Shown one piece after another: positions 26,025 to 53,431 of a stretch of DNA of 64,000 nucleotides. Origin of the DNA: Fusobacterium ulcerans ATCC 49185. Its GTDB lineage: Bacteria; Fusobacteriota; Fusobacteriia; Fusobacteriales; Fusobacteriaceae. The notes beneath the pieces were generated by a model. The model worked only from the letters and a program-made list of their open reading frames with translations, ran no database searches and was not told the origin of the DNA. Made by a program: the position numbers and the translations under genes. Position 1 is the first letter of the stretch; each line of letters begins with the position of its first letter. Location: NCBI RefSeq assembly GCF_900683735.1, contig NZ_LR215979.1, positions 3,658,001 to 3,722,000 on the forward strand, written 5' to 3'.

Positions 26025-26075
26025 AACTAAAAAAGATGTTTTTCCTAAAATTAAGGAAGAACATCTTTTTTAGTT
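26025..26075. terminator. Bidirectional terminator between MATE and sigma-54 regulator genes
   Basis: Perfect 16-bp stem AACTAAAAAAGATGTT / AACATCTTTTTTAGTT with an inner TTCCT/AGGAA pair, between convergent genes. Confidence 0.85.
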
Positions 26076-26081
26076 AGGTTT

Positions 26082-27452
26082 TTATAAAGAATTATTATTT
26101 ATGTATTTTCTAATTAATTTATTAGCCTTGGTTTGGCTTATTTTTAAGTATTGAGCTACTTTTCTTGAAGTTTTAAATTTTTGATAAGCTTCTTTTATTA
26201 GATTGGCTTCGTAATGACTTACCTTTTCATCAAATGACATACTAAAATCTTCTTCAATAGAATTTTTGTCTGAAGAATGATTAGGAAGCTTTTCAGAAAG
26301 GTGTTCAATTCCGATAATAGAACTATCATTAGTAACCATAAGTCTTTCTATTGCATGCTGTAATTCTCTTATATTTCCTTTCCATTGAGCAGCTTCTAGT
26401 ATTTCTAAAGCTTCTTTTGTAAAAGATTTGGAGAAAAAATATTTTTTATTAAACTTTTCAATAAAACTTTTTATTAAAAATGAAATATCTTCTTTTCTCT
26501 CTCTTAAAGGGGGGAGATATAATTCTATAACATTCAATCTGTAATATAAGTCTTCTCTGAATTGCTTGTTGAAAACTAAAGTTCTCAAGTCTTTATTAGT
26601 TGCAGCAATTATTTTTACATCAATTTCAATAGGTTTATTTCCACCAATTGGTAAATATTTTTGCTCTTGCAGGACATGAAGTAATTTTGATTGAGCTGAA
26701 AGAGGAAGTTCAGATATTTCATCTAACAATAGAGTTCCTTTGTTTGCTGTTTCAAAGAGCCCCTTTTTACCTTTTGAATTTGCTCCTGTAAAAGCACCTT
26801 TTTCATAACCAAATAATTCACTCTCAACTAAGTTTGTTGGAATGCTGGCACAATTTAAACTTACAAAAGGTTCATTTGCTCGATCACTGATAGAATGGAT
26901 ATATTTAGCCAGCATAGTTTTTCCAGTTCCACTTTCGCCAGTTAAAATACATGGAGTATCAATATTTTTTATACGCTCAATCATTTTTAGAAGTTCCTGC
27001 ATTTTAATATTATTGCTCTTAGGCGGCTCTATATTTTTTACAATGGAATCTTTGTATGTATAATCAGGATTATAAATTTTTATACCATCTGTATTATCCC
27101 TTACATTCATAACAACATATTTTAAAATATTTTTTTCATCAAAAATTGGAATTGCAATAGTAAATAATTCAGTTCCCAGAAATGTTTTTTGTTTAACAGC
27201 ATAAGGTTTTCGATCTTTATATACAATGGGAAGAATGGAACAATCCCAAGAATTATTATCCTTGTTTATAAAATCAAAAAAAGATTTTCCAATCATAGAT
27301 TCAGCTGTACAATTATAATGTCTTTGGCAGGCTTTATTAATATATACAATATTGTAGCGATTATCATAGATCAGAATTTCATCATACATATTATCGATAA
27401 TTTTCATAATTGTTTCAAGACTAATATTGAAAGGTAAATTCTTAAATGACAT
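26082..27452 (-). CDS. Sigma-54-dependent activator with PAS sensor
   Basis: 456 aa. PAS domain (about residues 15-115, IYDNRYNIVYINKACQRHYNCTAESMIGKSFFDF), AAA+ domain with Walker A GESGTGKT (162-169), the sigma-54 contact loop GAFTGA (209-214) and Walker B GTLLLDEISELP, arginine-finger region REDLYYRLNVIELYLPPLRER, and a C-terminal FIS-type HTH (SRKVAQYLKISQTKANKLIRKY). It remodels RpoN-polymerase. The divergent operon at 27704 has a -24/-12 promoter and palindromic sites, so it is the likely target; the PAS domain probably senses its substrate. Confidence 0.92.
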   Translation of the reverse strand: MSFKNLPFNISLETIMKIIDNMYDEILIYDNRYNIVYINKACQRHYNCTAESMIGKSFFDFINKDNNSWDCSILPIVYKDRKPYAVKQKTFLGTELFTIAIPIFDEKNILKYVVMNVRDNTDGIKIYNPDYTYKDSIVKNIEPPKSNNIKMQELLKMIERIKNIDTPCILTGESGTGKTMLAKYIHSISDRANEPFVSLNCASIPTNLVESELFGYEKGAFTGANSKGKKGLFETANKGTLLLDEISELPLSAQSKLLHVLQEQKYLPIGGNKPIEIDVKIIAATNKDLRTLVFNKQFREDLYYRLNVIELYLPPLRERKEDISFLIKSFIEKFNKKYFFSKSFTKEALEILEAAQWKGNIRELQHAIERLMVTNDSSIIGIEHLSEKLPNHSSDKNSIEEDFSMSFDEKVSHYEANLIKEAYQKFKTSRKVAQYLKISQTKANKLIRKYINNNSL

Positions 27453-27513
27453 TATTTCCCCCCCTAATTATAAAAAGTTCAAAAATATTACATAATGTTA
27501 TTATACTTTAAAA

Positions 27514-27568
27514 TTGAGTTGAAATCAAGTCGTTGAATTGAAAATGATTCAACTTTTCGAGTCGAAAA
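27514..27568. promoter_or_regulatory. Candidate upstream activator sites
   Basis: Three adjacent dyads: TTGA-N7-TCAA (27514-27528), GTTGAA-N10-TTCAAC (27532-27553) and TTTTCGAGTCGAAAA (27554-27568). They lie about 80-130 bp upstream of the -24/-12 promoter, the usual place for binding by a sigma-54 activator. Confidence 0.6.
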
Positions 27569-27645
27569 AAACTCAAAAAAGAAATATATTTTAAAATGAA
27601 AGAAAAAAATAAGCTTTTTAGATTGAAATAAAATAAGAATAAAAA

Positions 27646-27660
27646 TGGCATAGATATTGC
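27646..27660 (+). promoter_or_regulatory. Sigma-54 (-24/-12) promoter
   Basis: TGGCATAGATATTGC: GG and GC elements with the strict spacing of the RpoN consensus TGGCACG-N4-TTGC. About 44 bp before the ATG at 27704, and next to a sigma-54 activator gene. Confidence 0.85.
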
Positions 27661-27703
27661 TTATATATAAGACAATAATCTTAATTAAAAAAGGAGATGT
27701 CAT

Positions 27704-28822
27704 ATGAAAATCACAGATGTAGAAGTTATTTGTTTGAGAATACCACCAATGGATAGTCCATGTGAATGGGGTGAGGATGCTGTAATTGTAAAAGTTCACA
27801 CAGACATGGGAATAGTTGGAGTAGGAGAAAGTGATACTTCACCAGTGGTTGTGAAAGCGATTATAGAAGCACCAGAGACAAATTTATACTGTAGTGGATT
27901 GAAAAGACTATTGATAGGGGAAAATCCATTAGAGATACAAAAACTATGGGATAAGATGTATTGGGCTTCCAACTATGTAGGGAGAAGGGGAGCAGGGATA
28001 CATGCTATAAGTGCTATTGACATAGCTCTTTGGGATATAGCTTCTCAATATTATAAAGTTCCAATATATATGTTGCTGGGGGGAAAATATAGAGATAAAA
28101 TAAGAGCATATGGAACATTTATTCCAGCAGATACTCCAGAAGAGAATAAAATTATAGCTCGTGAACTAAAAAATCAAGGATTCACAAGTTTAAAATTTGG
28201 TGGTGGAGTTTTAGGAGATAGTCCAGAATTAGATGAAAAAATAGTAAGAGCAGTTAGAGAAGAATTAGGAGATGATTTTGAGTTAGAAATAGATCTTGCA
28301 AGTAAATGGAGAACATATGGAAATTCATTATCAATGATAAAAAAACTAGAAAAATATAATTTGAACTGGATAGAGGAACCTATACTAGCAGATGATTTAA
28401 AAGGGTATTCAAAATTATCAGGAGTGTCATCAGCAAAAATAGCTGGAGGAGAATCATTAACTACACGTTATGAATTTCAAGAATTTTTAAAAAGTGCACA
28501 GCCAGATATAGTTCAGCCTGATGTAACAAGATGTGGAGGAATAAGTGAACTGTGTAAAATATATGATATGGCTGAATTAAATGGAACTAAATTAATTCCT
28601 CATGGTTTTAGTACAGGGATTTTATTAGCAGCAACAGTTCAATTTTTAGCAGCAACAGAGCATGGGGATTTGATGGAATATTCTCAAAGTAATAGTCCGC
28701 TTTTCAAGGATTTAGTAAAAAATAGAATTCCTTTTGAAAATGGATATGTAACAGTACCTGATTGTATAGGATTAGGAATAGAATTAGATGAGGAAATGAT
28801 AAAAAAATATAGAATGAAATAG
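27704..28822 (+). CDS. Enolase-superfamily sugar-acid dehydratase or racemase
   Basis: 372 aa mandelate racemase/muconate lactonizing enzyme family. Metal ligands: Asp in LEIDLASKWR, Glu in WIEEPILADD, Glu in AGGESLTTR. A His-Asp dyad (QPDVTRCGG and LIPHGFSTG) and one Lys in SLKFGGG indicate the mandelate-racemase subgroup, which mostly dehydrates acid sugars or epimerises alpha to a carboxylate. Substrate not identifiable from sequence alone. First gene of the RpoN-controlled operon; RBS AAAGGAG. Confidence 0.85.
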   Translation: MKITDVEVICLRIPPMDSPCEWGEDAVIVKVHTDMGIVGVGESDTSPVVVKAIIEAPETNLYCSGLKRLLIGENPLEIQKLWDKMYWASNYVGRRGAGIHAISAIDIALWDIASQYYKVPIYMLLGGKYRDKIRAYGTFIPADTPEENKIIARELKNQGFTSLKFGGGVLGDSPELDEKIVRAVREELGDDFELEIDLASKWRTYGNSLSMIKKLEKYNLNWIEEPILADDLKGYSKLSGVSSAKIAGGESLTTRYEFQEFLKSAQPDIVQPDVTRCGGISELCKIYDMAELNGTKLIPHGFSTGILLAATVQFLAATEHGDLMEYSQSNSPLFKDLVKNRIPFENGYVTVPDCIGLGIELDEEMIKKYRMK

Positions 28823-28832
28823 AGGGGGAGAA

Positions 28833-30359
28833 ATGGAGAAAAAGTTAGATAAATTATTAATTATAGTAAGCTTGATAGTTGTTTTTATTATAGTAGGATG
28901 TTTATATTTTATGCCTGAATCTTCTCAGGAAATAGCAAATAAGATATTTAAATTATTCACTGATGTATTTGGATCATTAACTCTTTTATTTACTTTCATT
29001 GGAGTCATTTTATTAGCAGGAATATCTTTCAGTAAATTTGGGAGAATAAAATTAGGAGAGGGAGAACCTGAATACTCAACATTTAAATGGGTGTCTATGA
29101 TGATATGTTGTGGACTTGGATCTGCAACAGTATATTGGGCATTTATCGAATGGGCTTATTATATAGGAACTCCTGGTTTAGGAATAGTACCTAACTCTAT
29201 CAGAGCATATGAAATGAGTGTTACATATTCAATGTTTCATTGGGGAATAAGTGCTTGGACTTTATATGCACTTGCAGGAATTCCTATTGCTTATCATTTT
29301 CATGTCAGAAAAAATAAAGGACTTAGTTTAAGTAGTGTAATAAGTTCAATAACAGGGTTAAAACAAGATGGGATAATCTGTAGAATAGTGGATATATTAT
29401 TTATATTTATCTGCTTTGGAGGATTAAGTATAACATTGGGGGTATCAGTTCCTCTGGTTACAGAAATTTTCTGTAATGTAATTGGAATACAGCCAAGTTT
29501 TATAATAAATTTTCTTATAATAGTAGTTATTTCAATTGTATATTCTTTCAGTTCATATATAGGTATTCAAAAAGGAATGTCAAAAATAGCAGACTGGAAT
29601 ATAAAATTAGTTATAATTTTCCTTGTAGCAGTAGTTGTTTTTGGACCAACGTTATTTATAATTAATAACACAACTCAATCTTTAGGCCTGATGTTTCAAA
29701 ATTTTATAGGAATGAGTTTATTCACAGATTCGATAGGAAAATCAGGTTTTCCAGAATCTTGGACTATGTTCTACTGGTTGTATTGGATAACTTATGCACC
29801 TTTTACAGGGATTTTTATAGCAAAAGTTTCAAAAGGAAGAAATATACGTTCTGTAGTTGCGAATACACTGATTAGTGGAAGTTTCGGATGTTTTGTATTC
29901 TTTGGAGTTTTAGGAAGTTTGTCATTAGAACGACAGCTTAATAAAGTCGTTGATATGGTAGGAATGTTGAGTAATGGACAAGATAATATTGCTATTGTTA
30001 AAGTATTGCGTTCATTACCATTTGGTTCAATTTTTATGATAGTATTTTGCATAGTAACATTGTTATTCCTTGCTACAACATTAGATGGAGCAGCATTTAC
30101 AATGGCAACTACATCATCAATAGGACTTAAAAATAATGAAGAACCTAATCCTATGTTACGTCTTTTTTGGTGTGTAATGTTGGCTCTAGTGCCTCTTACA
30201 ATGATTCTTATTAAAGCAAATCTAAACACAATAAAAACTTGTGCAATAATAACAGCTGTACCAATTATCTTTATAATGATAGTAATGCTTATAGGAATGA
30301 TTCAGTGGATGTTCAAAGATTTTGGACAGATTGAAGCACATATGATAGATAAAAAATAA
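28833..30359 (+). CDS. BCCT-family transporter
   Basis: 508 aa with about twelve membrane segments. The BCCT signature is seen in YSMFHWGISAWTLYALAGIPIAYHFH and MFYWLYWITYAPFTGIFIAKVSKGR, and the start of the domain in GLGSATVYWAFIEWAYYI. Family members usually carry betaine, choline, carnitine or related zwitterions. Located between two acid dehydratase-type enzymes, so it probably imports their substrate. RBS AGGGGGAG, gap 10 bp. Confidence 0.9.
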   Translation: MEKKLDKLLIIVSLIVVFIIVGCLYFMPESSQEIANKIFKLFTDVFGSLTLLFTFIGVILLAGISFSKFGRIKLGEGEPEYSTFKWVSMMICCGLGSATVYWAFIEWAYYIGTPGLGIVPNSIRAYEMSVTYSMFHWGISAWTLYALAGIPIAYHFHVRKNKGLSLSSVISSITGLKQDGIICRIVDILFIFICFGGLSITLGVSVPLVTEIFCNVIGIQPSFIINFLIIVVISIVYSFSSYIGIQKGMSKIADWNIKLVIIFLVAVVVFGPTLFIINNTTQSLGLMFQNFIGMSLFTDSIGKSGFPESWTMFYWLYWITYAPFTGIFIAKVSKGRNIRSVVANTLISGSFGCFVFFGVLGSLSLERQLNKVVDMVGMLSNGQDNIAIVKVLRSLPFGSIFMIVFCIVTLLFLATTLDGAAFTMATTSSIGLKNNEEPNPMLRLFWCVMLALVPLTMILIKANLNTIKTCAIITAVPIIFIMIVMLIGMIQWMFKDFGQIEAHMIDKK

Positions 30360-30381
30360 ATTATTAAGGGAGATTAATGTA

Positions 30382-30717
30382 ATGAAAAGAAGTGTGAGAA
30401 TGCATGAAAAAGATCAGGTATCTACAGTTCTGAATGATGTAAAATGTGGAGATATAGTTGGAATATATAATGAACAAAATGAATTTTTATACGAAATAGA
30501 AGCAAAAGAGGATATACCTTATGGAAATAAAATAGCCTTATTTGATTTAAAAAAAGGGGAAGCGGTTATAAAATATGGTGAAAAAATAGGAGAATTAACA
30601 AAAGGAATATCAAAAGGAGAATTAGTACATGTTCATAATGTAAAAAGTTTATCAGTAGATATTCCTCCTGCTTTTAAAAAAGAAATTATTAGACAGATGA
30701 ATATAAAGTTAAAATAA
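30382..30717 (+). CDS. Altronate/sulfolactate-lyase-type small subunit (SAF domain)
   Basis: 111 aa SAF domain, matching the N-terminal part of UxaA/GarD-type dehydratases or the SuyA subunit of (R)-sulfolactate sulfo-lyase. Seen: MHEKDQVSTVLNDVKCGDIVGIY, IPYGNKIALFDLKKGEAVIKYGEKIGELTKGISKGELVHVHNVKSL. The HVHNVKS ending is characteristic. Works with the large subunit encoded 11 bp downstream. Confidence 0.85.
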   Translation: MKRSVRMHEKDQVSTVLNDVKCGDIVGIYNEQNEFLYEIEAKEDIPYGNKIALFDLKKGEAVIKYGEKIGELTKGISKGELVHVHNVKSLSVDIPPAFKKEIIRQMNIKLK

Positions 30718-30728
30718 GAGGAGGAAAA

Positions 30729-31910
30729 ATGATGAACTTTTTAGGATATAAAAGACCTGATGGAACAGTAGGTATAAGAAATAAAATTTTAATTATTTCA
30801 GTAGATGAATGTTGTGATGGAATAGCAAGAAAAATAGCGGAAAAAAGTGAAAATGCAGTGGTATTGACAAACTGGTATACATGTATGCTTGGAGGAAATG
30901 AAGAAACATTTAATCAAATGATAGAAGTTTCTAAAAATCCAAATGCAGCAGGGATTATAGTTCTAGCTATGGGGTGTGGAAGTATTTTACCTGAACAGAT
31001 AGCAGATCCAGTAAAAGAGACTGGAAAATTAACTGCAACTCTTGTATGCCAGGAAAACGGAGGAACAAAACAAACAATAGAAAAAGGAAGAAAAATTCTT
31101 GCAGATATAGATGCATATATAAAAAATTTAAAACTTGAGAAATTTACACTTGATAAACTTGTTGTTGGAGTTAAATGTGGAGGAAGTGATACAAGTTCAG
31201 GGATAGCATCTAATCCTAGTGTAGGAGTGGCTATTGATAAATTAATAGATATGGGAATGACTTGTATTGGAGGAGAATTATTTGAGTTACAAGGATGTAA
31301 TGAAATATTATTTAAGAGAGCTGTTTCTGATAAGGTTAGAGAAAAAATTGAAATATTGATAAACAATGAACGTGCTCGTTGGAGTGTAGAAGGAACAGAT
31401 GTAGAAACAATGAGTATAGGAAACAGTGTAGGAGGATTAACAACAATAGAAGAGAAATCTTTAGGAGCATTGCATAAAATGGGAACTAAACCTATTCAAG
31501 ATGTTCTTCAAATAAATAAAGATTTCATTGAAAAGCCTACTAAAGCAGGGTTTTATTTGTCAGAAGTAACTATGCTTTGTGGAGGAGCAGGAGTAAATTA
31601 TGCAGCTTTAGGAGCTCATATAATATTGTGGACAAGTGGAGCAGCAGGGTTTAATAATGCAATAGTCCCAGTTATAAGAGTAAGTGGAAATTCTGACTTG
31701 ATGAATGATGATATAGATGTCAATGTGGCAGAAATAATGGAAGGAACTATGGGGATTAGCCAGGGGGCTGATTTAATTGTACAAAAAGTTTTAGAAATTG
31801 CTAATGGCACACCAACAAAAATAGAAAATTATGGGGATTCTACAATGACTCTTTATCAAAAGGACCAGAGAGTAGAGAAAATGTTAAACTTGAAATGTGT
31901 AAATAAATAA
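30729..31910 (+). CDS. Altronate/sulfolactate-lyase-type large subunit
   Basis: 393 aa, UxaA C-terminal family (UxaA, GarD, SuyB). Opening GYKRPDGTVGIRNKILI is diagnostic; conserved cysteines VKCGGSDTSSGIASNPSVG, MGCGS and TMLCGGAG probably bind an iron centre. Whether it removes water from an aldonate or sulfite from a sulfonate is not decided by motifs I can judge. The two-gene form occurs in SuyAB as well as split altronate dehydratases. Start ATG 30729; ATG 30732 possible. Confidence 0.85.
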   Translation: MMNFLGYKRPDGTVGIRNKILIISVDECCDGIARKIAEKSENAVVLTNWYTCMLGGNEETFNQMIEVSKNPNAAGIIVLAMGCGSILPEQIADPVKETGKLTATLVCQENGGTKQTIEKGRKILADIDAYIKNLKLEKFTLDKLVVGVKCGGSDTSSGIASNPSVGVAIDKLIDMGMTCIGGELFELQGCNEILFKRAVSDKVREKIEILINNERARWSVEGTDVETMSIGNSVGGLTTIEEKSLGALHKMGTKPIQDVLQINKDFIEKPTKAGFYLSEVTMLCGGAGVNYAALGAHIILWTSGAAGFNNAIVPVIRVSGNSDLMNDDIDVNVAEIMEGTMGISQGADLIVQKVLEIANGTPTKIENYGDSTMTLYQKDQRVEKMLNLKCVNK

Positions 31911-31921
31911 TGATTAAATAT

Positions 31922-31971
31922 AAAGGATAAAAGAAAAAATGAATTTAAAAAATTTCTTTTATCCTTTTGTT
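31922..31971 (+). terminator. Terminator of the enolase/BCCT operon
   Basis: Perfect 15-bp stem AAAGGATAAAAGAAA / TTTCTTTTATCCTTT followed by TGTTAT. Confidence 0.8.
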
Positions 31972-31997
31972 ATATAAAGAATAAAATTAAAATAGGG

Positions 31998-32027
31998 TTT
32001 ACTTTTGTATAGGATATGTGATATATT
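31998..32027 (+). promoter_or_regulatory. Promoter of the ileS leader
   Basis: TTTACT (31998-32003), 18-bp spacer, TATATT (32022-32027); 30 bp before the leader-peptide ATG. Confidence 0.5.
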
Positions 32028-32057
32028 GTACTTAGAAAATATAACAAGGAGAAGAAA

Positions 32058-32111
32058 ATGACTTTAAGAGCTGCTATAATTATAATAATATCAATAATAT
32101 GCTTTCAATAA
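32058..32111 (+). CDS. Isoleucine-rich leader peptide of ileS
   Basis: 17-codon frame MTLRAAIIIIISIICFQ with seven Ile codons (six ATA, one ATT), preceded by AAGGAG 6 nt upstream. A rho-independent terminator follows at 32176-32203, before ileS. This is the arrangement of a transcription attenuator: when charged Ile-tRNA is scarce the ribosome stalls in the Ile run and the downstream RNA can refold. AATAATATC within the Ile run (32084-32092) is perfectly complementary to GATATTATT (32122-32130), a possible 1:2 stem. No T-box sequence is present. Confidence 0.75.
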   Translation: MTLRAAIIIIISIICFQ

Positions 32112-32175
32112 AAATATTATAGATATTATTTATGTAGTCTAAGTTATTCTTCTTAAGGAAATAAATTGAAAGTTG

Positions 32176-32203
32176 AAGACAGCCTGCATAGCTGTCTTTT
32201 TTA
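32176..32203 (+). terminator. Attenuator terminator in the ileS leader
   Basis: AAGACAGC (32176-32183) pairs with GCTGTCTT (32191-32198), followed by a T run. Lies between the leader peptide and ileS, 33 bp before the start codon. Confidence 0.8.
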
Positions 32204-32235
32204 TTACAATCTAAACTTTTTATCAGGAGGGTTTT

Positions 32236-35200
32236 ATGTATAAAAAAGTGTCTACGAGTCTGAATTTCGTAGAAAGAGAAAAGGAAATTGAAAAATACTG
32301 GGAAGAGAACAAAATTTTTGAAAAAAGTCTTGAATTAAGAAAAGGAGATAAGACATATACTTTCTATGACGGACCTCCTACAGCTAATGGTAAACCACAT
32401 ATAGGGCATGTTTTAACTCGTGTAATAAAAGATATGGTACCTAGATACAGAACTATGAAAGGTTATGATGTACCAAGAAAAGCTGGATGGGATACACATG
32501 GACTTCCAGTAGAGCTTGAGGTAGAAAAATTATTGGGAATAAATGGAAAAGATCAAATAGAAAGTTATGGACTACAACCATTTATTGAAGAGTGTAAAAC
32601 AAGTGTGTGGAAATATAAGGGAATGTGGGAGGACTTTTCTAAAACAGTTGGATTTTGGGCTGATATGGAAAAACCATATGTAACTTATGACAATAACTTC
32701 ATTGAATCTGAATGGTGGGCATTGAAGCAAATATGGGAAAAAGATTTACTTTACAAAGGATTTAAAATCGTTCCTTACTGCCCAAGATGTGGAACACCTC
32801 TATCAAGTCACGAAGTAGCACAAGGGTATAAAGATGTAAAAGAAAGATCAGCAATAGTTAGGTTTAAAGTGAAAGACGAAGATGCATATATTCTAGCTTG
32901 GACAACTACTCCTTGGACACTGCCTTCAAATGTGGCTCTTTGTGTAAATCCAAATGAAACTTATGTAAAAGTTCAGCATGAAGGATATACTTACTACATG
33001 GCAGAAGCTTTAGTTCCAACAGTATTAAAAGAAAACTATACAATTATTGAGAGTTACAAAGGAAAAGATTTAGAGTACAAAGAATATGTACCTCTATTTA
33101 ATTTTGTAAAACCAGATAAAAAATGCTGGTATGTAACTTGTGATACTTATGTTACATTGACTGATGGTACTGGAGTAGTTCATACAGCCCCTGCATTTGG
33201 AGAAGATGACGCCAATGTAGGAAGAAAATATGATCTTCCATTTGTACAATTAGTAGATTCTAAAGGAGAAATGACAGAAGAAACACTTTGGCCTGGAGTA
33301 TTCTGTAAAAAAGCAGATAAAGATATTTTGAAAACTCTTGAACAGAATGGACTTCTTTTTGATGCACCTGTATTCGAGCATAATTATCCTCACTGCTGGA
33401 GATGTGACACTCCTCTTATCTATTATGCAAGAGAATCTTGGTTTATCAAAATGACAGCTGTAAAAGAAGACCTTATCAGAAACAATGACACTATCAACTG
33501 GATACCAAAAACTATAGGGAAAGGACGTTTTGGTGACTGGCTTGAAAATGTTCAGGACTGGGGAATCAGCCGTAATCGTTACTGGGGAACTCCTCTGAAT
33601 GTATGGGAATGTGAATGTGGACATAATCACGCTATTGGAAGCATAGAAGAATTAAAATCTATGTCACCTAACTGCCCTGAGAATATTGAGCTTCACCGTC
33701 CATATATAGATGCAGTAACTATAACTTGTCCTCATTGTGGAAAACAAATGACAAGAGTACCAGAAGTTATTGACTGTTGGTTTGATTCAGGGTCAATGCC
33801 TTTTGCTCAGCACCATTATCCATTTGAAAATAAAGACTTATTTGAAAAACAATTCCCAGCAGACTTTATATCTGAAGCTGTTGATCAGACAAGAGGCTGG
33901 TTCTATTCGCTTCTTGCAATATCTACATTGATTTTCAATAAAGCACCATACAAAAATGTAATTGTATTGGGACATGTACAAGATGAGAATGGACAGAAGA
34001 TGTCTAAATCTAAGGGAAATGCAGTAGACCCATTTGAAGCACTTGCTACTTATGGAGCAGATGCTATTCGTTGGTACTTCTATATAAATTCAGCTCCTTG
34101 GCTTCCTAACAGATTCCATGGAAAAGCGGTTCAGGAAGGGCAGCGTAAATTCATGGCTACATTATGGAATACCTATGCTTTCTTTGTTCTTTATGCTGAG
34201 ATAGATCAGTTTGATGCTACTAAATATACTTTGGACAGAGATAAATTAACTGTTATGGATAAATGGCTTCTTTCTAAATTGAATACAGTAGTAAAAGGTG
34301 TAGATGAAAACCTTGCTGATTACAAACTTCTTGAAGCTGCAAGACTTCTTCAGGATTTTGTAGATGAATTAAGTAATTGGTATGTAAGAAGAAGCAGAGA
34401 ACGTTTCTGGGTACAAGATATGACTGCTGATAAAATTACAGCATATATGACTTTATATACAGCTCTTGTTACTATTTCAAAAGCTGCTGCACCAATGATT
34501 CCATTTATAACAGAAGAAATTTATCGTAATCTGGTATGCAGTATAGATAAAACTGCACCTGAAAGTATTCATTTGACTGATTTCCCAGAAGTACATGAAG
34601 ATCTTATAGATAAAGCACTTGAAGAGGATATGGAAGAAGTTCTCCAGGTAGTTACTTTAGGAAGAGCAGCAAGAAATGCAGCTAATATAAAAAATAGACA
34701 GCCAGTAGCTAATATTTATGTAAAAGCTGGACATAAAGTTGGAGAGCTTTATCAAAACATTATAAAAGAAGAACTTAATATTAAAGAGATTCACTTTGTA
34801 GAGGATACTTCACAATTTACTTCATATACTTTCAAACCTCAATTAAAAGTGTTAGGACAAAAATATGGTAAGAAAGTAAATGAAATCCGTACTCTGTTGG
34901 CAGAGATGGACGGAAGCAAAGCTAAAAAAGAGCTGGATACTAATGGAGTTTTAGTTATTAAATTAGCTGATGGAGAGGAAGCATCTCTTACTGTAGATGA
35001 TTTGTTGATAGAAACAGCTCAAACAGAAGGATATATGCCTCTTGAAGATAGAGGGATAACAGTTGTACTTGATACTAAACTTACTCCTGAATTAATAGAA
35101 GAGGGATTTGTAAGAGAAGTTATCAGTAAAATTCAATCTATGCGTAAAGAGGCAGATTTTGATGTAACTGATCACATTATATTCTATGAAAAAGATAATG

Positions 35201-35352
35201 ATAAAATTAAAGAAATCATTGAAAGAAATGCTGAAGAAATTAAGCATGATACTCTTGCTGATGAAATAGTCTTTGGACAAGCAGATGGATTCACAGGAGA
35301 ATTTAATGTAAATGGAGAAAAGGTTGTCTTTGGAGTAAAAGTAAATAAGTAA
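32236..35352 (+). CDS. ileS: Isoleucyl-tRNA synthetase, type-2-like
   Basis: 1038 aa. Charges tRNA-Ile. HIGH motif in GKPHIGHV (about residue 52), KMSKSKG late in the catalytic domain (NGQKMSKSKGNAVDP), editing CP1 domain with WTTTPWTLPSN and GTGVVHTAPAFGEDD. Its length (over 1000 aa, against about 930 for type 1) and KAGWDTHGLPVELEVEKLLG place it near the eukaryote-like IleS2 group, which is often less sensitive to mupirocin. Own leader with Ile-rich peptide and terminator; own terminator at the end. Confidence 0.95.
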   Translation: MYKKVSTSLNFVEREKEIEKYWEENKIFEKSLELRKGDKTYTFYDGPPTANGKPHIGHVLTRVIKDMVPRYRTMKGYDVPRKAGWDTHGLPVELEVEKLLGINGKDQIESYGLQPFIEECKTSVWKYKGMWEDFSKTVGFWADMEKPYVTYDNNFIESEWWALKQIWEKDLLYKGFKIVPYCPRCGTPLSSHEVAQGYKDVKERSAIVRFKVKDEDAYILAWTTTPWTLPSNVALCVNPNETYVKVQHEGYTYYMAEALVPTVLKENYTIIESYKGKDLEYKEYVPLFNFVKPDKKCWYVTCDTYVTLTDGTGVVHTAPAFGEDDANVGRKYDLPFVQLVDSKGEMTEETLWPGVFCKKADKDILKTLEQNGLLFDAPVFEHNYPHCWRCDTPLIYYARESWFIKMTAVKEDLIRNNDTINWIPKTIGKGRFGDWLENVQDWGISRNRYWGTPLNVWECECGHNHAIGSIEELKSMSPNCPENIELHRPYIDAVTITCPHCGKQMTRVPEVIDCWFDSGSMPFAQHHYPFENKDLFEKQFPADFISEAVDQTRGWFYSLLAISTLIFNKAPYKNVIVLGHVQDENGQKMSKSKGNAVDPFEALATYGADAIRWYFYINSAPWLPNRFHGKAVQEGQRKFMATLWNTYAFFVLYAEIDQFDATKYTLDRDKLTVMDKWLLSKLNTVVKGVDENLADYKLLEAARLLQDFVDELSNWYVRRSRERFWVQDMTADKITAYMTLYTALVTISKAAAPMIPFITEEIYRNLVCSIDKTAPESIHLTDFPEVHEDLIDKALEEDMEEVLQVVTLGRAARNAANIKNRQPVANIYVKAGHKVGELYQNIIKEELNIKEIHFVEDTSQFTSYTFKPQLKVLGQKYGKKVNEIRTLLAEMDGSKAKKELDTNGVLVIKLADGEEASLTVDDLLIETAQTEGYMPLEDRGITVVLDTKLTPELIEEGFVREVISKIQSMRKEADFDVTDHIIFYEKDNDKIKEIIERNAEEIKHDTLADEIVFGQADGFTGEFNVNGEKVVFGVKVNK

Positions 35353-35360
35353 TAATATAA

Positions 35361-35392
35361 AAAGAGGTTGACGGTGTCAACCTCTTTAATTT
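35361..35392. terminator. Bidirectional terminator between ileS and flavodoxin genes
   Basis: Perfect 12-bp stem AAAGAGGTTGAC / GTCAACCTCTTT with a 3-nt loop, A-rich before and T-rich after, between convergent genes. Confidence 0.9.
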
Positions 35393-52135: not shown

Positions 52136-53431
52136 CTAATCTCCTTGTATTCCTAGGTATTTAAAGCCTATATTTGCTCCAAGGAGTATGAACTTTTCTG
52201 TGAGAGTTTTATTTGAAGAATTTTTTATTCTAAACCATATATTTTTAAATGTGTAGGTTTTTCTCCATACTTTTCTGTATATTTCATCCAGTCTTTCCAT
52301 AGACATATTCTCTGGTTGAAAAACTGTGTTGTTTTGTGTATATTTAGACCAGTCTTTTATAATTATTCGGCCTTCTTTGTCCATTTTTCTATATAGTTCA
52401 GAATTTGGCAAAGGAGTCAAAATAGAAAATCTTGCCAAATCTAGTCCTAAATATTTTATTTTTTCAGGGAGTGCCAGTAAATCTTCTTCAGTGTCTCCAT
52501 CCATTCCCAATACAAAACAACCATTTATTGCTATATTATATTTATGAGCTCTATCTATGCAATCTTTATATCTTTCTACATTGGAAAATTTTTTATTTAC
52601 TCCTTTTAAAGTTTCTTCTCTAAGAGATTCAAACCCTATGAGAATACCTGAACATCCGCTTCTTTTGGCAGCTTCCATAAGCTCATCGTCAAAAGGAGCA
52701 TCAGCTGTACCATTTCCAGCCCATTTTATTTTTAGTTTTTCCATTTCTTTCATTAATTTTAAAGAATACTCTTTAGGATAGAAGAAATTTGGGTCAAAAA
52801 ATATTATTTTATCGCTTTTTAAACTTTTTATTTCTTCAATCACATCTTCTACTGGTCTGGGATTACTTTTCCACATCTCGCTTATAGCACAAAAACTACA
52901 TTTGTTATCACAGCCTCTATCAGCTATTACTGGTGATACCTTCATATATCTCTTGCTTTTTATCACATTCCTTGGAACCATTTTTATTTTTCTTACATCT
53001 ATATTTTGATTATTATATATTTTTTTAGGTTCTCCCTTGAGATAATCATGAAAAAATTCAGGAAGAGATATCTCACCTGCTCCTATTATTACAGTATCAC
53101 AATGTTCTGCTGCTTCTTTAGGTACAGCAGAGGTGTGATATCCTCCCATTACAATATATGCACCTCTTTTTTTAAATTCTTTTGAATGTATATATGCCTG
53201 TTTGCTGGAAGAGGTATCAAAAGAAATTACAATAATATCATATTTTTTATTATTATAATCTACTTTATATGATATTTCATCACAAACATCTATTTCTGCA
53301 CTTATATCTTTTGGTACTAGTGATACCAATGTAGGTAAAGTGAGTGATGGATATGTCATTAGATTGGAAAATATTCCTCTGTATGATTTTTCTGTTTTGT
53401 TCCAAGCATGAATAAAAAGTATTTTTAAAAT
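52136..53431 (-). CDS. B12-binding radical SAM protein E (probable ATT start)
   Basis: 431 aa if translation starts at ATT 53431, 6 nt after GGGAGGG (53444-53438). The first ATG in frame (53359) would remove the first strand and loop of the cobalamin-binding domain and has no ribosome site. From the ATT the protein begins ILKILFIHAWNKTEK, and residues 3-40 align gap-free with residues 1-38 of protein B. N-domain IVMGGYHTSAVPKEAAEHCDTVIIG, radical SAM motif ADRGCDNKCSFCAIS, LIGFESLREETLKGVNKKFSN. First gene of the operon; an inefficient start could limit expression of the pathway. Confidence 0.75.
   Translation of the reverse strand: MLKILFIHAWNKTEKSYRGIFSNLMTYPSLTLPTLVSLVPKDISAEIDVCDEISYKVDYNNKKYDIIVISFDTSSSKQAYIHSKEFKKRGAYIVMGGYHTSAVPKEAAEHCDTVIIGAGEISLPEFFHDYLKGEPKKIYNNQNIDVRKIKMVPRNVIKSKRYMKVSPVIADRGCDNKCSFCAISEMWKSNPRPVEDVIEEIKSLKSDKIIFFDPNFFYPKEYSLKLMKEMEKLKIKWAGNGTADAPFDDELMEAAKRSGCSGILIGFESLREETLKGVNKKFSNVERYKDCIDRAHKYNIAINGCFVLGMDGDTEEDLLALPEKIKYLGLDLARFSILTPLPNSELYRKMDKEGRIIIKDWSKYTQNNTVFQPENMSMERLDEIYRKVWRKTYTFKNIWFRIKNSSNKTLTEKFILLGANIGFKYLGIQGD

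Follow-up and report, generated by a model that had tools for sequence, protein, structure and literature searches.

The window, by which we mean the whole analysed stretch of 64,000 nucleotides from Fusobacterium ulcerans ATCC 49185, contains a short open reading frame rich in isoleucine codons, a rho-independent terminator and a gene for an isoleucyl-tRNA synthetase, here called ileS2, in that order (Table 1). Seven of the 17 codons of the frame encode Ile, six as ATA and one as ATT, and the frame, its own ribosome site and the terminator ahead of ileS are all found in the sequence as the preliminary description of this DNA gave them. The same description regarded ATA as a rare type of codon, which is wrong, since ATA is the commonest Ile codon in the long ORFs of the window (59% of Ile codons). 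In this AT-rich genome a pattern of an ATG followed by four Ile codons has 18 matches, against 14 when read backwards. Ile runs after ATG are thus near background, and an argument for a regulatory leader has to be built on structure and conservation: the excess over chance lies in the combination of Ile run and structure and in the conservation across genera.

Table 1. Features of the ileS2 locus, in window positions.
Feature	Position	Strand	Remarks
Conserved cassette: promoter, leader, terminator and ileS2	31972-35370	+	Flanks differ between lineages
Sigma-70 promoter TTTACT-18 nt-TATATT, extended -10 TG	31998-32027	+	Predicted; 9/12 matches
Leader peptide ribosome site AAGGAG	32046-32051	+	Inside the 5' foot of the 1:2 hairpin
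1:2 hairpin	32049-32154 (arms 32049-32100 / 32114-32154)	+	Spans ribosome site, ORF and Ile run; from folding and paired changes
Leader peptide ORF MTLRAAIIIIISIICFQ	32058-32111	+	17 codons; run kept in 8/8 relatives
Segment 2 antiterminator core UAUGUAG	32131-32137	+	Once the hairpin is opened, pairs with the loop (CUGCAUA, 32184-32190) and some of the 5' arm of the terminator
Rho-independent terminator (segments 3:4) GAAGACAGC-CUGCAUA-GCUGUCUUU and T run	32175-32202	+	From terminator search and folding
ileS ribosome site AGGAGG	32225-32230	+	From sequence
ileS2, IleRS2-type isoleucyl-tRNA synthetase	32236-35352	+	1038 aa; HIGH and KMSKS motifs

Judged by its sequence, the gene 3' of the leader is a second synthetase, of the IleRS2 type, and not the housekeeping enzyme. 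Among solved structures its product is matched best by Isoleucine--tRNA ligase 8c8v. Of the NCBIfam models MupA and MupB score highest, although both scores (1052 and 1027 bits) lie under the curated cut-off of 1900. The housekeeping IleS1 is found elsewhere in the same genome, directly 3' of a histidine-kinase-like gene, with 938 codons and 33% identity to the ileS2 product, and no leader was found upstream of ileS1 where its upstream region was read. The IleS1 of the window's genome is 73% identical to that of Fusobacterium vincentii, against 52% for the next genus, and the ribosomal rplU-rpmA region also matches Fusobacterium, in keeping with a host from among the Fusobacterium relatives. 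IleRS2 is the mupirocin-resistant type (PMC4861432, PMC10485003), and by analogy the enzyme of the window probably has low sensitivity to mupirocin; a canonical HIGH motif sets it apart from the hyper-resistant GXHH form.

Among 98 genomes of the phylum, ileS2 is present in eight, six of them in the genus of the window and the remaining two in a second genus of that family. The eight genes form one clade (SH-aLRT 99), which in the tree is nested within Clostridia, next to L009. In all eight genomes ileS2 is preceded by a leader with an Ile run, a hairpin and a terminator, the last of these placed after the leader ORF and before ileS2. The short ORF always has its own ribosome site, and its translation is predicted from sequence. 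With the Ile run and the terminator kept in all eight fusobacterial genomes that have ileS2, the leader passes the check on near relatives named in the preliminary description. Each leader has 6-11 Ile codons, and in the peptides of the four lineages (MTLRAAIIIIISIICFQ, MGYRKAIIIISIICSK, MNFTNTIIIISSIIK and MMTIISIIIISIICLKKNIIDSIVVL) the run is kept while the residues that flank it vary (MTLRA, MGYRK, MNFTN and MMTII). A covariance model built from the leaders recovers these eight from the 98 genomes at E 1e-15 to 1e-23 and no further match better than E 0.018, and it gives no match at E < 1 in 80 clostridial ileS loci. The weak match at E 0.018 (L143) was considered as another user of the leader and rejected, there being no isoleucine-metabolism gene nearby.

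The block that is homologous between lineages consists of promoter, leader and ileS2 (31972/31999 to 35352/35370 in the window) and has different flanks at four genomic sites, and ileS2 and its switch appear to have spread together as a single cassette. By its score alone the predicted promoter is not above chance; its -35 and -10 boxes are alike in all four lineages, and it starts the homologous block in all eight genomes. Identity between the two genera is 84-88% for IleS2 and 77% for IleS1, a difference in sequence that fits transfer between genera, or that could alternatively come from slower change of IleS2. About 6 kb of sugar-acid type genes (26026-31954) lie between a MatE-type gene and the cassette in the window and in G010; they comprise an enolase-superfamily dehydratase, a BCCT-like transporter and parts of a UxaA-like dehydratase, and G008 and G009 are without them.

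The perfect 9-nt complement between 32084-32092 and 32122-32130 that was pointed out in the preliminary description is correct, but it is just the core of a far longer hairpin that takes in the whole ORF and its ribosome site. The hairpin of each lineage has its 5' end on, or close to, the ORF's ribosome site or start codon, and it extends about 40 nt beyond the complement of the Ile run. The whole leader folds at -40 kcal/mol, compared with a shuffle mean of -25.7 (z = -4.25), and in all four lineages the 1:2 region has greater stability than shuffled versions of it (z -2.5 to -7.6). The stems also have the covariation that had been suggested as a check: pairing in two or more of the four lineages is seen at 46 positions, of which 15 have changed on both sides, counted by register from structures predicted for each sequence, which biases the counts towards pairing. 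The arm-swap control gave clear support for the own partner in two of the four lineages, and no preference for it in the other two. The terminator hairpin (32175-32199) has nine pairs followed by the T run, and one was found where 0.0 were expected in shuffles. A separate stem, AAAGGATAAAAGAAA / TTTCTTTTATCCTTT, followed by T-rich DNA, belongs to the upstream gene (31922-31967) and is distinct from the ileS2 terminator.

In all eight leaders folding predicts mutually exclusive structures, 1:2 with 3:4 on the one hand and 2:3 on the other, that are switched by the position of the ribosome, and an alternative antiterminator fold with stalled and non-stalled states, the existence of which had been proposed, is thus found throughout. 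Without a ribosome the 1:2 hairpin is predicted to leave the terminator free in every leader. On a partial transcript that ends before the 3' arm of the terminator, capture of segment 3 by upstream sequence has a mean probability of 0.01-0.14 when no ribosome is present, and placing the A-site at the final Ile codon of the run raises it to 0.66-0.85 (8/8 leaders); the observed change was equalled by none of 300 shuffles in each of the four lineages, which are the only independent ones available for comparison. The capturing element is UAUGUAG in the window and AUGUGG, UUGUGG or UGUGG in the other lineages, and the terminator loops (CUGCAUA, CUGCAU, CUGCAA and CCACA) change in step with it. The energy of the 2:3 duplex by itself is not better than that of shuffles (p 0.03-0.35), and for stalls at Ile10-11 the leader of the window has weak 2:3 pairing, 0.16-0.27. 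We propose Ile codons 7-11 (32076-32090) and 13-14 (32094-32099) as the regulatory codons. A ribosome parked at the stop codon would also free segment 2 in seven of the eight leaders, its position masking segment 2 only in G036, and the off state of those seven would depend on rapid release.

We consider the leader to be a ribosome-mediated transcription attenuator of the classical type on an acquired ileS2, reading charged tRNA-Ile, and put the probability of this at about 0.88. RNA polymerase would start at the cassette promoter, presumed to be active, and a ribosome would translate the Ile-rich leader. With plenty of charged tRNA-Ile the ribosome would finish and leave, the 1:2 hairpin would close over the ribosome site as well, the 3:4 terminator would form and transcription would end before ileS2. 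When charged tRNA-Ile is short, because of isoleucine starvation or mupirocin-like inhibition of the housekeeping IleRS1, the ribosome would presumably stall within the Ile run and mask segment 1, and segment 2 would then take the loop and 5' arm of the terminator (2:3), so that read-through and induction of ileS2 could be expected. The attenuator interpretation given to this leader at the outset is supported, with the correction that the controlled gene is an acquired IleRS2 and not a general ileS.

The logic of 1:2, 2:3 and 3:4 pairing with cognate codons is that of the E. coli pheST leader attenuator and of the trp, his and ilv operon attenuators. The fusobacterial leader shares it in another phylum and on another gene, and differs in a 1:2 hairpin that takes in the entire ORF as well as the ribosome site. 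An auxiliary, antibiotic-resistant Trp synthetase is reportedly under leader-peptide transcription attenuation, going by the title of Vecchione and Sello 2010 (cited in PMC4787780), and is said to be from Streptomyces; the likeness lies in a spare antibiotic-resistant synthetase with leader-peptide attenuation, whereas here the amino acid is Ile instead of Trp, the leader moves with its gene as a cassette, and there is a case of replacement that leaves a single enzyme. PMC1262725 lists, for Streptomyces avermitilis, a candidate attenuator in front of trpS2, and also T-boxes on ileS genes of actinobacteria. In Bacilli, His leader peptides have been predicted upstream of the hisS paralogues hisZ and hisS* (Naville and Gautheret 2010, PMC2965389), where likewise a leader peptide with cognate codons replaces the T-box on a duplicated synthetase gene; those genes are duplicates within the lineage and concern His, while ileS2 was acquired across phyla. 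An 'ileS leader CDS', CCNA_03934, is named for Caulobacter crescentus in PMC4117421; it is a small CDS upstream of an ileS gene, and the naming passage gives neither its sequence nor its regulation. Our literature search turned up no earlier account of an ileS gene under an Ile-leader attenuator, or of such an attenuator in Fusobacteria. The locus would be an instance of a synthetase gene under leader-peptide attenuation in Fusobacteria, where the T-box search gave few matches across the phylum, and a clean case of one sensor of tRNA charging, the T-box, being swapped for another, the stalled ribosome, on a gene that has moved between phyla.

Housekeeping IleS1 is present in seven of the eight ileS2 genomes, which makes a back-up role plausible, in which ileS2 would be turned on by inhibition of IleS1 or by a shortage of isoleucine; for a back-up against drugs in particular we judge the chances to be even. 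MupA, MupB and the IleRS2 of Priestia megaterium are of the IleRS2 type as well, and MupA is a mobile resistance gene (PMC10485003). In one mupA record, the Staphylococcus epidermidis plasmid NZ_CP014118.1 (L171), only 26 nt separate an upstream methyltransferase gene from the start of mupA, leaving no room for a leader attenuator of the ileS2 kind; compared with this record, the attenuator belongs to the cassette only in the fusobacterial case. The attenuation could also be real and serve ordinary feedback on isoleucine limitation, unrelated to antibiotics, a rival to the role and not to the mechanism. Feedback by tRNA charging is common on synthetase genes, and G035 keeps the leader even though ileS2 encodes the only IleRS found there. 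In this genome (99% complete; L152, L167, G035:C1) ileS1 is absent between the histidine kinase gene and lspA, its place in relatives, and the ileS2 cassette lies upstream of that place, between ffh and tex; it is a natural experiment in which a spare synthetase became the only one found. In the other seven genomes, however, IleRS1 is also present and plain feedback on a spare gene is less obvious, and ileS2 is patchy and found at different sites, much like a resistance gene. Ordinary feedback nevertheless keeps a little under half of the probability. We would tentatively go one step further, with somewhat less than an even chance of being right, and see a self-regulating mobile resistance cassette: a drug-tolerant clostridial ileS2 may have entered Fusobacteria, lost its T-box and gained a leader read by the ribosome, after which the unit of promoter, leader and gene spread among genera, was induced by inhibition of the resident IleRS1 and in one lineage replaced that enzyme. 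A drug role predicts inducible mupirocin tolerance in some fusobacteria; our literature search found no paper on mupirocin in Fusobacterium varium.

The stall itself might have another cause, if the hydrophobic, Ile-rich nascent chain arrested the ribosome upon drug or general translation stress, instead of the Ile codons reading the charging of tRNA-Ile. Inducible resistance leaders of the erm type act by nascent-chain arrest, and the Ile run is both conserved and hydrophobic, but the residues around it vary, unlike those of arrest peptides, the amino acid of the run is the substrate of the enzyme encoded downstream, and the folding switch responds to stalls at several points along the run. 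We find such an arrest improbable.

Attenuation by a stalled ribosome must further be weighed against a divergent T-box or other riboswitch, binding a ligand or tRNA, that would control ileS2 with the short ORF being incidental. The thought comes naturally because the nearest clostridial relatives (L009, L013, L039 and L047) have T-boxes upstream of ileS according to Infernal, which was used in place of a loose motif search of the clostridial upstream regions that proved uninformative. The clostridial T-box leaders (RF00230) share with ileS2 the gene family, the signal (uncharged tRNA-Ile) and the output (terminator read-through), but here there is no T-box and a translating ribosome does the sensing. 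The leader has no match to the T-box or any other Rfam family even at E 1, in agreement with the preliminary description, in which no T-box was visible; it is also only about 170 nt long, nearly all of it taken up by the ORF hairpin and the terminator, and its in-frame Ile run is conserved in eight genomes, all of which makes a riboswitch very unlikely. In the whole genome of the window no T-box was detected by a search with lossy filters. A strong T-box of 125 bits (L118, G007:C53:5272-5519) occurs in a fragmented and incomplete genome whose genus has otherwise yielded no T-box, and is possibly contamination or a recent transfer.

That an Ile-rich frame should merely have fallen beside the terminator of an upstream gene, in DNA of about 75% AT where Ile runs after ATG are near background genome-wide, is hardly credible, since a separate stem and T-rich tail belong to the upstream gene, ileS2 keeps its leader where the genes upstream differ, and both the covariation and the shuffles speak against it.

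A second small Ile-rich frame, MYICLFAGRGIKRNYNNIIFFIIIIYFI, is found at window positions 53186-53272 without a clear ribosome site; it is probably a product of chance and could be used as background.
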